Shown piece after piece: positions 48,201 to 51,419 of a stretch of 64,000 nt of DNA; the stretch's first letter is position 1; every line of letters starts with the position of its first letter. This DNA is from an uncultured Collinsella sp. (lineage in GTDB: Bacteria > Actinomycetota > Coriobacteriia > Coriobacteriales > Coriobacteriaceae): NCBI GenBank assembly GCA_934647195.1, contig CAKUFD010000007.1, positions 1 to 64,000 on the forward strand. The letters run 5' to 3'. The position numbers and the translations under genes are program-made. Below the pieces are notes generated by a model. That model saw only the letters and a program-made list of their open reading frames with translations, had not been told where the DNA came from and ran no database searches.

Positions 48201-48853
48201 GGTCGAATCTCGTGTTTATCCCTCGGGCCGATGCGCTTGATGATCTGACGGGCGACGCGCTCGAGGAGACGCTGGCCTCTTCCGATGTTGCCTCTTCGCG
48301 ATCGCTCCTGCATGAGGGCGACCCCTGTGCGCTCGGATCGGCATTTCATGCCGCGGCGCAATGGCTCATCGAGACGGGTTCTGCGTTGCTGCCGACTGCG
48401 CGCGCGGAGGCGCTGTGCTCCTACTGGAAGGTATCTGCCTCGCAGCGCGCTCGTTTTGATGAGGCGTTGAGGCTCTGGTCTAGCTCGGATGTGCGCGCAG
48501 AGCTTCTTGGTTGGCCGCGCGTCTTGGCGGAGGTCCCGTTCTTCTCGTTGGGCCTTGATGACGATGATATTCGTCATCGTTTTGGTAGCTTTGCAGAAGG
48601 CGCAATCGATGCCTTGGCATACGATCCCGCCGATCCCTCACGTGCGTTAGTCATCGACTACAAGACGGGCGGCTCTTCCGATGAAACCCTCGAGGAACTG
48701 CGGGAAAAACATGCTCTGCAAGCGCGCATCTACCTCGATATCCTGTATCGCGCAGGCTTTTGCGAGGTGACCCTCAAGTTCGTGCGCGTCGAGGTCGAAG
48801 ACCCTCGAGTGCCGGGGCAGCCGCAAGTCGTGACCTATCGCTTGCTGGCTTAG
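45209..48853 (+). CDS. addA: AddA-like ATP-dependent helicase/nuclease subunit
   Basis: The product is 1214 residues, a UvrD-family helicase. Motifs are Walker A in FVSAGAGSGKTFTLTRR, AITFTKDAAAEIRERV, Walker B in MIDEFQDTDQQQ, GDAQQSIYRFRGAD, VHASKGLEFPVV and LYVAMTRAREVL. The C-terminal nuclease has AIDALAYDP, VIDYKTGG and QARIYLDIL. It starts at GTG 45209 (GAGGAGGGGA upstream) or ATG 45218. With AddB it processes broken DNA ends for RecA. Its stop overlaps that of the converging LysR gene by three bases. Confidence 0.92.
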   Translation: MSTMDLSTLMPQQREIVTTLDRPLFVSAGAGSGKTFTLTRRILWALSPESGPFAEHLDQVLAITFTKDAAAEIRERVRAALIDAGMAEEALTVDDSWISTIHGMCSRILRTHALELGIDPAFEVLEEGSAALLMDRAVEHVLSAARDERGDDADPFAELKTWYPLYGEIGPSGSEMGTSARSLVRRLLEVSCALPHGMDDIHIVGAQADLSALADAYRPCLEASPGAAECARTALAAIDAFEASEKTMADLGACMLACSAPRASKAFPKDQVLLLKAEAADSFINAMVAVGSAATSQLFELARRVEAEYRELKRAAGGLDNNDLLRMTHEALRDYPSVRSAYENRFKLVMIDEFQDTDQQQVDLISYLTGEDGRALCTVGDAQQSIYRFRGADVEVFRRQERSIAQTAGNDDSSSQGRIVKLVRNFRSHAQILEYVARVFDGEQGGLMHDFLDLEAHDGRRDALVAADVSRRQAIFVAGGSSEERIDVKAATIAARFKELADKGQPVGGMVLLLGGMTFADRYAAAFRAQGLDCVISGGSVFSSAPEVSAVRALVCALANPADTAQGLSPLLASPMFALGVEEFLALATGYDSETGETRRRNLDAGIASDDDAPGFDDLPLLRRARQVLRYAFARVGRDSFTRIARDVINTSGWFVRLAKRGPEGRAVAANVLKALDALQDAEDALGNAPRQIAGAFDAFLAGKEAPGALNEGDASAVRIMTVHASKGLEFPVVAVADCYSIHANSSRMQMRRAADHADVSLLPGRFAGGRAADGTFVAGADVEKAFNRYFRGSASSPAWLDPELMDDVCATDSAAGEFVAMREEDEAASLEERARLLYVAMTRAREVLILALDAGTGTARKAGKVAELKFNEDRDLTAAVLDRILPKGIADLAQGHLVFEGSQNGDFAFIPLGDFSYGEFRYVDMTDTFAAVPDASGADTGVLPNDGGPLDTFTLAYPERHRLRSAAVPRVQRDSYSYSSMAATLDEEGEDRLPSQGSNLVFIPRADALDDLTGDALEETLASSDVASSRSLLHEGDPCALGSAFHAAAQWLIETGSALLPTARAEALCSYWKVSASQRARFDEALRLWSSSDVRAELLGWPRVLAEVPFFSLGLDDDDIRHRFGSFAEGAIDALAYDPADPSRALVIDYKTGGSSDETLEELREKHALQARIYLDILYRAGFCEVTLKFVRVEVEDPRVPGQPQVVTYRLLA

Positions 48854-49797
48854 ACGCCCGCACCGTCCTCCGCGATCAAGACTGCTCCGTTGCGGTCGGC
48901 ATCGGCGATGATGCGCCGCAGCTCGGAGAGGTATTGCGTGAGAATCGGTGTGGGGCGTCGCTCGTCGTGCACGATGTAGCCCACAAGCATGTGCGCGTCT
49001 TCTTTGAGCGGGATGCTCGCCATGCCCGACTGCATCTCAGCTGAGAGCACGCCGGTAGAGAGCGCATACCCATTTGACGTGGTGAGCAGGTTGGTGAGAG
49101 TTCCGCGGTCCGACATGCGGATGTTGCGCGCGCAGGGGACGTACGAGAGCGGCTCCTCCGAAAAATAGAACGAGTTGGACGTTCCCTGCTCAAAGCTATA
49201 ACGCGTATAAGGCGCGAGGTCTTCCAGCCCGATGGAAGGCTTTGCTGCGAGAGGGTGGTTCTCGCTTACAAATACATGGACGCGCGCGTTGAAGAGCGGG
49301 TGAAAACTCACGCGTGCGTCGGCGAAGGCCTTCTCCAGTACACGCCGATTGAAGTCGTCCAGATAGAGGATGCCCACCTCGCTGCGAAAGGCGCGCACAT
49401 CGTCGATGATCTGCGCCGTTGTGGTCTCGCGCATGGTGAACTCGAACTTCTCGTCATCGCAAGCCTCCACCACGTTGATAAACGCCTGCACCGAGAAGGC
49501 ATAGTGCTGGGCCGAGACGGCGAGACGCGCCTGCGGTGCCTCATTGTGTTCATAGCGAGCTTCGAGCATGTTTGCCTGCTCGACCACTTGGCGAGCATAG
49601 CCCAGCAGCTCGGTGCCGTCGGCGGTGAGCATGACGCCGCGGCTGCTGCGCGTGAAGATGGATATCCCCAGTTCCGCTTCGAGCGATTTGATGGCGCTCG
49701 AGATGTTCGATTGCGCGGTGTAGAGGTTTTGAGCTGCGGCGTTGATGGAGCCGCTCTCGGCCACTGCAATGAGGAAACGCAGTTGCTGCAAAGTCAT
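48850..49797 (-). CDS. LysR-family transcriptional regulator, divergent from metY
   Basis: The product is 315 residues with an N-terminal helix-turn-helix (SINAAAQNLYTAQSNISSAIKSLE) and a substrate-binding effector domain. Being divergent from metY with an LysR-type dyad between them, it is a likely regulator of sulfur amino acid synthesis. The effector is unknown; O-acetyl(homo)serine is used by some relatives. Confidence 0.88.
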   Translation of the reverse strand: MTLQQLRFLIAVAESGSINAAAQNLYTAQSNISSAIKSLEAELGISIFTRSSRGVMLTADGTELLGYARQVVEQANMLEARYEHNEAPQARLAVSAQHYAFSVQAFINVVEACDDEKFEFTMRETTTAQIIDDVRAFRSEVGILYLDDFNRRVLEKAFADARVSFHPLFNARVHVFVSENHPLAAKPSIGLEDLAPYTRYSFEQGTSNSFYFSEEPLSYVPCARNIRMSDRGTLTNLLTTSNGYALSTGVLSAEMQSGMASIPLKEDAHMLVGYIVHDERRPTPILTQYLSELRRIIADADRNGAVLIAEDGAGV

Positions 49798-49817: not shown

Positions 49818-49838
49818 GTTATCTATTATAACGATAAC
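49818..49838. promoter_or_regulatory. LysR-type operator
   Basis: GTTATC and GATAAC form a perfect dyad with nine bases between, containing the ATC-N9-GAT (T-N11-A) pattern of LysR regulators. It lies 20 bases before the LysR gene and 21 bases before the metY -35 element. Confidence 0.65.
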
Positions 49839-49858: not shown

Positions 49859-49887
49859 TTGACGTGAGCCGCGGGCGAATTTACTAT
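49859..49887 (+). promoter_or_regulatory. promoter of the metY leader
   Basis: TTGACG, a 17-base spacer and TACTAT give a good sigma-70-type promoter. Transcription should begin near 49894, leaving a leader of about 218 nt before metY. Confidence 0.8.
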
Positions 49888-49953
49888 GCTAAACATACCA
49901 AGCCGATAGGGAATTGTCCCTACGGAGATTGAGCCAGAGGGGAGGACCCACGG

Positions 49954-50034
49954 ATGTGTCAGACCGAACGAATGCACAGCTCCCGGTTGCTGCGCACGCT
50001 GAGGACGACCCGCGACTCACGAATGTCCCAATAG
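49954..50034 (+). CDS. leader peptide of the metY attenuator
   Basis: A 26-codon open frame, ATG 49954 to TAG 50034, has GGAGG eight bases before its start. The peptide begins MCQTERM and continues Arg-rich, with Arg at 11, 14, 17, 20 and 23. Met codons are at 1, 7 and 24 and the only Cys is codon 2. Codons 9-13 overlap the 5' arm of the antiterminator described below. Its position and spacing suggest that its translation, not its product, matters. It could sense Met or Cys supply; the many Arg codons leave another possibility. Confidence 0.65.
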   Translation: MCQTERMHSSRLLRTLRTTRDSRMSQ

Positions 50035-50069
50035 CGCCACGCGACCGGGAGCGTTAACGCCCCGTTTTT
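49979..50069 (+). promoter_or_regulatory. transcription attenuator (antiterminator/terminator switch) of metY
   Basis: Two exclusive structures share one segment. The antiterminator pairs 49979-49990 with 50041-50052 (12 bp, one G-T). The terminator pairs GGG-GCG (50047-50053, one bulged A) with CGCCCC (50058-50063) around TTAA and runs into TTTTT (50065-50069). The first arm lies inside the leader ORF, so a ribosome moving through it frees the terminator. A ribosome stalled early leaves the antiterminator to form. A small hairpin at 49907-49922 precedes the leader ORF. Confidence 0.7.
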
Positions 50070-50111
50070 ACTTCCCGCGCCTTTGCGCCGATTCTGTTTA
50101 AGGAGAACATC

Positions 50112-51419
50112 ATGTCCCAGTTCGTCAACAATCCCGAGCATACTTTTGGTTTCGACACCCTTCAGCTGCACGTTGGCCAGGAGACCGCAGATCCCGCATC
50201 CGATGCTCGCGCGGTGCCCATCTATCAGACTACGAGCTATGTCTTCCGCAACTCCAAACATGCTGCCGACCGCTTTGGTCTGGCCGACGCCGGCAACATC
50301 TATGGTCGTCTGACCAACTCGACCCAGGGTGTTTTCGAGGATCGCATCGCCGCGCTCGAGGGCGGCGTGGCCGGCCTCGCCGTCGCATCCGGCGCTGCCG
50401 CCATCACCTATGCTATCCAGGCACTTGCTCAGGCCGGCGACCACGTAGTTGCTCAGAAGACCATCTACGGCGGTTCTTACAACCTACTCGAGCACACGCT
50501 TTCTCAGTTTGGCATTGAGACCACCTTTGTCGACGCCCATAACCTCGAGGAGGTCGAGGGTGCGATTCAGGACAACACCACCGTTGTCTACCTGGAGACC
50601 CTGGGCAATCCCAACTCCGATATCCCCAACATCGACGCTATCTCCGAGATCGCCCATAAGCATGGCCTGCCGGTCGTCGTGGACAATACCTTTGGCACTC
50701 CGTACTTGTTCCGTCCGCTGGAGCATGGCGCGAACGTCGTCGTCCATTCGGCTACGAAGTTCATCGGCGGCCACGGTACGTCGCTTGGCGGCGTGATCGT
50801 CGACGGCGGCAACTTTGACTGGAAGGCCTCCGGCAAGTATCCGCAGCTTGCCGATCCCAACCCCTCCTATCACGGCATTTCTTTCGTCGACGCTGTGGGT
50901 GCTGCTGCATTCGCAACTTATATCCGCGCTATCCTGCTGCGCGATGAGGGCGCTTGCATCTCGCCGTTCAACGCGTTCCTGCTGCTCCAGGGCACCGAGA
51001 CGCTCTCCCTGCGCGTCGATCGCCATGTGGAGAACACCAAGAAGGTCGTCGAGTTCCTGAGCCAGGATCCGCACGTTGCCTCCGTTAATCACCCGAGCCT
51101 GCCCGATCATCCCGATCACGAGCTCTATCAGCGTTATTTCCCCAACGGCGGCGCCTCGATCTTCACCTTCGAGATCAAGGGCGGTCAGGAGGCAGCCTGG
51201 AAGTTCATCGACAACCTGCAGATCTTCTCCCTGCTTGCTAACGTTGCCGATGTAAAGAGTCTGGCGATTCACCCGGCAACCACCACGCATTCCCAGCTCA
51301 CCGAGGCCGAGCTTGCCGACCAGGGCATCACCCCTTCGACGATCCGCCTCTCCATCGGCACCGAGAACGCCGAAGACATCATCTGGGACCTGAGCCAGGC
51401 CTTCGCCAAGCTCGACTAA
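50112..51419 (+). CDS. metY: O-acetylhomoserine sulfhydrylase
   Basis: The product is 435 residues, a PLP enzyme that makes homocysteine (or cysteine-like products) from O-acetylhomoserine and sulfide. The PLP lysine lies in [14 protein letters not shown], with [23 protein letters not shown] and DNTFGTPY as family markers; the length fits MetY rather than the shorter MetB/MetC. ATG 50112 follows AAGGAGAA. Control appears to be double: the LysR dyad at the promoter and the attenuator in the leader. Confidence 0.95.

Follow-up and report, generated by a model that had tools for sequence, protein, structure and literature searches.

The window, a stretch of 64,000 nucleotides of contig CAKUFD010000007.1, contains a metY gene for O-acetylhomoserine sulfhydrylase on the forward strand (50112..51419, 435 aa; TIGR01326, 622.8 bits against a cut-off of 495.1), preceded by the Shine-Dalgarno (SD) sequence AAGGAG at 50100..50105. 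Its closest counterpart, at 99% identity, is the metY of Collinsella bouchesdurhonensis (locus L001), which identifies the source as a Collinsella, and the two loci are 87% identical over 420 aligned bases upstream of the gene. A gene for a LysR-type regulator is divergent from metY (48850-49797, reverse strand). Between lysR and the metY promoter lies an inverted repeat, GTTATC-N9-GATAAC (49818-49838), which upstream regions of C. aerofaciens also have. The repeat is a likely operator, perhaps for the divergent LysR. In five other metY upstream regions from the same order (L247, L249, L267, L271, and L272), GTAGGT/ACCTAC repeats are found close to the promoter, along with the first part of a divergent gene; on visual inspection its product resembles an Rrf2-type regulator.

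The space between lysR and metY holds a promoter, a short leader ORF, and two overlapping RNA structures, all on the forward strand. The sigma-70-type promoter (49859..49887) has TTGACG as its -35 box (49859-49864) and TACTAT as its -10 box (49882-49887), with a 17-bp spacer. The promoter scan is weak by itself, reporting 2 such sites per 3 kb against 1.2 expected; the TTGAC(G/C)...TACTAT pair is visible by eye in the L001 and C. aerofaciens loci. An SD sequence, AGGGGAGG (49938..49945; anti-SD pairing -10.4 kcal/mol), precedes a leader ORF of 26 codons, MCQTERMHSSRLLRTLRTTRDSRMSQ, which starts with ATG at 49954 and occupies 49954..50034 with its stop codon included. The ORF contains a conserved, unpaired codon pair, CGA AUG (Arg6-Met7, 49969..49974; alignment columns 13-18), followed by the antiterminator 5' arm, GCUCCCGGUUGC (49979..49990). 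This arm forms 12 bp with the 3' arm, GCGACCGGGAGC (50041..50052), and the two arms covary. The 3' arm shares bases with an intrinsic terminator (50046..50069) made of the hairpin CGGGAGCGUUAACGCCCCG (50046-50064, one bulged A) and the T-run TTTTT (50065-50069), and the two structures are mutually exclusive in the window. Our scripted test scored this terminator at -9.8 kcal/mol; a simple terminator scan of the window did not report it. The original prediction had described the promoter, the ORF with its SD, the 12-bp antiterminator, and the overlapping terminator, and each could be read directly and by script. The window leader folds better than its shuffles (z -2.85), 2 of 200 being equally good.

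Met and Cys occupy codons 1, 2, and 7 of the window leader, as had been claimed, with a further Met at 24. Ahead of the 5' arm there is one Cys (Cys2) and one internal Met (Met7) only. The peptide also has Arg at every third residue from 11 to 23. This spacing, singled out in the original prediction, is present in the window and is not conserved. Because position 17 is Gly in L001, the nearest relative, and other leaders lack the pattern, we attribute it to chance.

We compared metY upstream regions across the order Coriobacteriales. The element has the consensus CGA-ATG-N5-CTCYCGG in frame, then a stop codon, and then CCGGGAG. It is present in 53 and absent in 42 of 95 upstream regions drawn from the metY genes of the order's 395 genomes, with 7 of 102 metY matches outside the count. 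Collinsella metY leaders have CGAATGC-N4-CTC[CT][CT]G in common. Within the family, a close metY (at least 79% identity) occurs in 30 genomes, and in 28 of them this string stands ahead of the gene; no element precedes metY in the family members C. tanakaei (G007, locus L028) and G047. Outside the family, seven more metY genes carry the element (G002, G088, G089, G090, G127, G128, and G209). With up to two mismatches allowed, it was found in 18 of 60 metY upstream regions from the order, a set that includes G007 and G047 and one region, L265, that ends early at a contig end. We collected 45 element sequences, leaving 35 after removal of the near copies L001, L004, L010, L019, L103, L104, L139, L170, L258, and L274. 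The original prediction had proposed the logic of classical attenuation and had named lack of conservation of the ORF frame or of the paired arms as the outcome that would speak against it. Many genomes of the order keep both the frame and the arms, the latter with compensatory changes.

One locus lies in a genome labelled Slackia isoflavoniconvertens (L002). Its metY is 93% identical to that of the window, and only L001 is closer among the loci listed. The L002 leader is minimal, encoding MRHTKRMPNSR before the stop codon. Horizontal transfer of metY together with its attenuator is possible.

The antiterminator helix covaries across these sequences. Its ten pairs are intact in 96.3% of cells over 41 of the 45 sequences (40 distinct). 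Six pairs vary on both sides, and 41 cells show double changes where shuffles give 10.1. At 0.390, the covariation score exceeds the shuffle mean of 0.209, was reached by 0 of 500 shuffles, and lies above every slid control; the shuffles keep the relatedness among sequences, so these figures are not probabilities. A first set of 19 sequences gave the same picture for the score and the cells, and its count of pairs varying on both sides was not unusual (169 of 500 shuffles). At core positions of the helix, some C-G pairs are replaced by U-A and some G-C pairs by A-U.

The leader ORF carries the signature of translation in one frame. We asked for a start codon with an SD of -7 kcal/mol or better within 105 bases, a frame that stays open across the motif, and a stop codon ahead of the 3' arm. 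The Arg-Met frame passes in 31 of the 35 non-redundant elements (all except L270, L273, L276, and L280), and the other two frames pass in 0/35 and 0/35; without the stop condition, the three counts are 31, 0, and 3. We also counted the residues in up to six codons ahead of CGA, inside leaders only and with the start codon left out. Among 197 residues from 35 leaders there are 60 Met, 31 Cys, and 10 Trp, and the background codon shares in the long ORFs of the window are 1.9%, 1.5%, and 0.7%, respectively. At least one Met or Cys stands ahead of CGA in 32 of the 35. Met and Cys abound in the leader peptides just ahead of Arg-Met, as in MTTTTMMMCMRMLSSR, MAIHSADQRIMMMMCCCRMPNSR, and MTATAANAMMMCCRMPFSR; those of L273 and L280 have Trp and Cys there in place of Met. 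The elements thus pair a translatable, SD-led ORF with control codons that, taken over all 35, fit the amino acid of the operon, as in ribosome-mediated attenuators.

These frame statistics and the Met/Cys bias argue against a metabolite-binding riboswitch, in which CGAAUGC and the hairpin would form an aptamer and the ORF would be incidental; a sulfur metabolite could be the ligand. Such an aptamer would fit the conserved CGAAUG nucleotides in unpaired columns and the many elements with no obvious terminator. The distance from CGA to the 3' arm is very variable (36-127 nt), which does not fit an aptamer well. No Rfam family matched the window between 49800 and 50120 at E-values up to 5, in keeping with the original prediction that SAM riboswitch signatures are absent, and neither the SAM riboswitch nor the T-box covariance model matched the window. 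At an E-value of 1, eight loci gave four Rfam matches, all away from leaders. We regard a riboswitch as highly improbable.

Terminators are found in part of the element set. A hairpin that begins within the 3' arm, with a T-run behind it, was detected in 16 of the 35 elements, the window included, compared with 32 of 350 shuffled trials; the terminator of L257 is weak (-5.4 kcal/mol). The scripted test found none in the other 19, C. aerofaciens among them, and three of the ten near copies have one (L170, L258, and L274). The downstream arm of the terminator often copies the antiterminator 5' arm (CTCCCGG or GCTCC), as would be expected if the two structures compete. Leaders of the C. aerofaciens group have their stop codon right next to the 3' arm, and a pyrimidine-rich stretch without a terminator follows; our guess is that termination there might depend on Rho. 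The predicted terminator thus stands for the window itself and was not detected by the scripted test in its nearest relative, L001, where the arms are kept. A looser fold count does find terminator pairs in L001 when the modelled ribosome covers the arm.

The missing terminator call in L001 raises the question of whether the leader is decaying, or already a fossil, in this part of Collinsella, with metY mainly under the control of the divergent LysR at the promoter. The adjacent lysR gene, the inverted repeat shared with C. aerofaciens, the absence of the element from C. tanakaei, and the small number of Met and Cys codons in the window peptide would all fit such a history. The substitutions between the window and L001 point the other way: the first 11 codons differ synonymously only and the frame is unchanged, whereas later codons vary freely. 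The antiterminator is kept in both, and the terminator pairs seen in L001 by the looser count also speak against decay. LysR control and attenuation are, moreover, compatible as two layers. We therefore consider a fossil leader improbable.

We propose that the element is a trp/his-type attenuator in which a translating ribosome controls transcription according to the supply of Met (and Cys), and we hold this reading to be likely. RNA polymerase would make the leader RNA while a ribosome reads the small ORF. When charged Met-tRNA or Cys-tRNA is scarce, the ribosome would stall, or would not initiate, upstream of the 5' arm. The free 5' arm would then pair with CCGGGAG, block the terminator, and allow metY to be transcribed. 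When Met and Cys are ample, the ribosome would arrive at CGA-AUG and mask the 5' arm. CCGGGAG would then go into the terminator, and transcription would end before metY.

We modelled the ribosome by blocking a 30-base footprint codon by codon and folding the remainder at equilibrium; co-transcriptional order is outside this model and should favour the earlier helix. With the A site at codon 2 of the window leader, the model gives 12 antiterminator pairs and no terminator. Met7 gives a mixed fold, and codons 10, 11, and 14 or the stop codon allow the terminator to form. A ribosome at codons 18-26 frees the 5' arm again, so termination in the window depends on the right timing. The early Met and Cys codons named in the original prediction are thus present ahead of the arm, but Met7 lies at the boundary of the mixed fold, and the informative early event would be a stall on codon 2 or a lack of initiation. 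Across 17 modelled elements, the terminator call begins 0-2 codons past the Met of Arg-Met in 11. Before that point, eight of these 11 show the antiterminator and three a mixed fold; among the eight, L020 and L176 each have a single stray terminator call further upstream. One of the remaining elements reaches a mixed state only, and 5 of the 17 are terminator-dominant almost throughout. We also considered that Met and Cys codons might be concentrated in the modelled antitermination zone; this was not supported, as they are no richer there (30/207) than in the termination zone (42/243). The anatomy of the element gives good grounds for read-through after a stall before the arm, and termination would rest on an inferred timing.

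A methionine attenuator faces a particular constraint: initiation itself needs Met, and the device has to tolerate loss of the initiator tRNA. With no ribosome on the leader, the antiterminator forms in the window model; over the 17 elements, the outcome is antiterminator in 9, mixed in 2, and terminator in 6. The default antiterminator suggests how such elements might cope with loss of initiator tRNA.

The CGA-AUG pair hardly varies. Arg is encoded by CGA in 34 of the 35 non-redundant elements and by CGG in one, a figure that partly reflects selection, since some elements came from pattern searches requiring CGA; ATG follows in 34 elements and CTG in the remaining one. Among the 18 elements from the mismatch-tolerant search, CGA occurs in all and is followed by ATG in 17 and CTG in one (L276). 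Of the Arg codons in the long ORFs of the window, 8% are CGA; in 19 related loci, counted over their longest ORFs, the share is 18%. CGA is a slow, wobble-decoded codon. The pair stands five bases ahead of the helix and takes no part in it, at the point where the modelled ribosome flips the fold. Pairing of CGAAUG with a conserved complement was dropped as an explanation because CATTCG occurs in only 3 of 35 leaders. We suggest, tentatively, that the leaders form an order-wide Met/Cys attenuator regulon in which CGA followed by AUG acts as a programmed gate. The gate would slow or halt the ribosome where it masks the arm, and the upstream Met/Cys codons would set the sensitivity. This extended reading is possible but less likely than not; if it is true, methionine supply is read at one position.

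Some leaders end just past Arg-Met and have no CTCYCGG arm (L282, L291, and L292; L275 is less clear). The first three encode MSGRMPR, MNMMMFGRMPS, and ...MSPMMMERMPC, respectively, with a UGA stop two codons after CGA-AUG, and in L282 and L292 a hairpin begins at the stop. These arm-less leaders suggest that the pair may matter by itself. At L262, a divergent Met/Cys-rich leader before metY (...MEMRMCTCMCKTCC...) has CGC for CGA and a strong terminator downstream.

The near-invariance of Arg-Met outside the helix is also compatible with nascent-peptide arrest, in which ...R-M-x-x-S-R would arrest its own ribosome when methionine or S-adenosylmethionine is sensed, and the fold would be set by this arrest instead of by tRNA starvation. 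Recurrence of Arg-Met in the arm-less short leaders, one of them ending in ...SGRMCR, fits such a signal. The count of CGAATG in arm-less regions is unremarkable, however: there are 7 occurrences in 42 regions, and 9 of 180 permuted hexamers (CGAATG itself among them) reach 7. The surrounding and intervening residues are highly variable, and the upstream Met/Cys runs suit codon starvation. A stop at Arg-Met would, moreover, cover the 5' arm and lead to termination, the opposite of an inducing arrest. Arrest by the peptide is thus unlikely.

Genome-wide searches extended the set of elements. The covariance model R1 gave matches in at least 167 of the order's 395 genomes at an E-value of 0.05. 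We inspected L190, L198, L212, L215, L217, and 20 further regions (L220-L239). They contained one new real element, ahead of metNI (L217), and L190 proved to be the already known L173. The other 23 were coding sequence or leaderless hairpins, three of them with E-values of 4e-6 to 1.4e-5. Because chance matches reach such values and the real element of G005 scores as weak as 0.025, R1 E-values cannot tell real from chance. The pattern CGAATGNNNNNCTCYCGR gave 106 hits across the order, against 59 for the reversed control. A search for the 3' arm split these hits into real sites at -20 kcal/mol or below and others at -17 or above; the sole exception, L355, reaches -21.0 kcal/mol but has no leader setting. 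This split leaves out the hits G137:C173, G216:C1:2528486, G273, G275, G289, G299, G300:C30, G318:C21, G353:C8, and G354:C2, of which G300:C30 precedes a metY outside the count. The search added a truncated metY (L340) and an element ahead of an MFS transporter gene (L344). In a class-level draw of 149 genomes, 81 of them beyond the order's 395, all 10 hits inspected in these 81 were coding sequence with 3' arms at -18.8 kcal/mol or above (hit G401 was left out). Within this sample, the element was not seen beyond the order.

We compared the element with known systems. RNA-based methionine control is known mainly via riboswitches and T-boxes, and SAM riboswitches and Met T-boxes control methionine genes by premature termination. 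Unlike these, the window leader has no Rfam match of either kind. In attenuators of the trp, his, and leu operons, an SD-led leader ORF carries control codons for the amino acid that the operon makes, and exclusive antiterminator and terminator structures lie before the structural gene. The Collinsella element shares the SD-led ORF, the control codons, and the exclusive structures. It differs in being Met/Cys-specific, in the near-constant CGA-AUG that borders the 5' arm, in a stop codon that varies in place between the arms, and in having no 1:2 pause hairpin in the predicted fold of the window leader.

Related leaders have been described for cysteine. The uORFC-8-2 motif ahead of cysS in Rhodobacterales is a candidate uORF with cysteine codons whose stalling is described as leading to read-through (PMC8632094). 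Both systems thus combine a uORF bearing sulfur-amino-acid codons with read-through on stalling; uORFC-8-2, compared here by its description only, is alphaproteobacterial and precedes a tRNA-synthetase gene. In the main text of that screen of 26 genomes, the words methionine and metY are absent. Cysteine leader peptides also precede cys genes in Mycobacterium and Propionibacterium and cbs operons in Bifidobacterium (PMC1262725). Like our element, these belong to Actinobacteria and place Cys codons in a short ORF; as described there, they lack a terminator and Rho has been proposed. Unlike our element, their Cys run is near the stop codon, and for Mycobacterium no conserved terminator hairpins are reported. 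The same survey of Actinobacteria gives no conserved RNA structure ahead of methionine operons among the genomes it covered, and its genome list as shown has no Coriobacteriia. Collinsella and Eggerthella are unnamed in the main text of a terminator survey (PMC2965389). Our literature search, which left most subscription papers outside its scope, found no methionine leader-peptide attenuator and none in Coriobacteria, and a description elsewhere is possible. We also found no Rfam family that describes the metY element. With the corrections given above, the original prediction stands. The element is probably a ribosome-mediated attenuator in kind, and we did not find its specificity and codon-pair signature described.

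The element also stands ahead of six other genes, five of which have family matches related to sulfur amino acids or sulfur compounds. Methionine synthases (NF005085, above cut-off) lie behind it at L168 and at L149/L181, in the latter case with about 480 bases between the element and the gene start. At L217 it precedes an ATPase and a permease that match MetN and MetI best. At L173/L190, whose leader has a weak start, a permease gene follows that is best matched by a cystine permease model; the matches at L217 and L173/L190 are below cut-off. A substrate-binding protein of the SsuA family (sulfonate-type, below cut-off) follows at L189, and the MFS transporter at L344. The link to sulfur amino acids drawn in the original prediction was borne out by Met/Cys runs before the arm in other leaders and by the methionine synthase, metNI, and related transport genes behind the element. 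Its signature offers a simple marker of sulfur-amino-acid genes in gut bacteria, including the L344 MFS transporter. The L173/L190 and L217 leaders have LCYG-x-F in common upstream of Arg-Met. This common motif hints at conservation at the peptide or RNA level that may go beyond the shared element. Upstream of the metNI leader at L217, an FMN riboswitch lies on the opposite strand (1027-1165, reverse).
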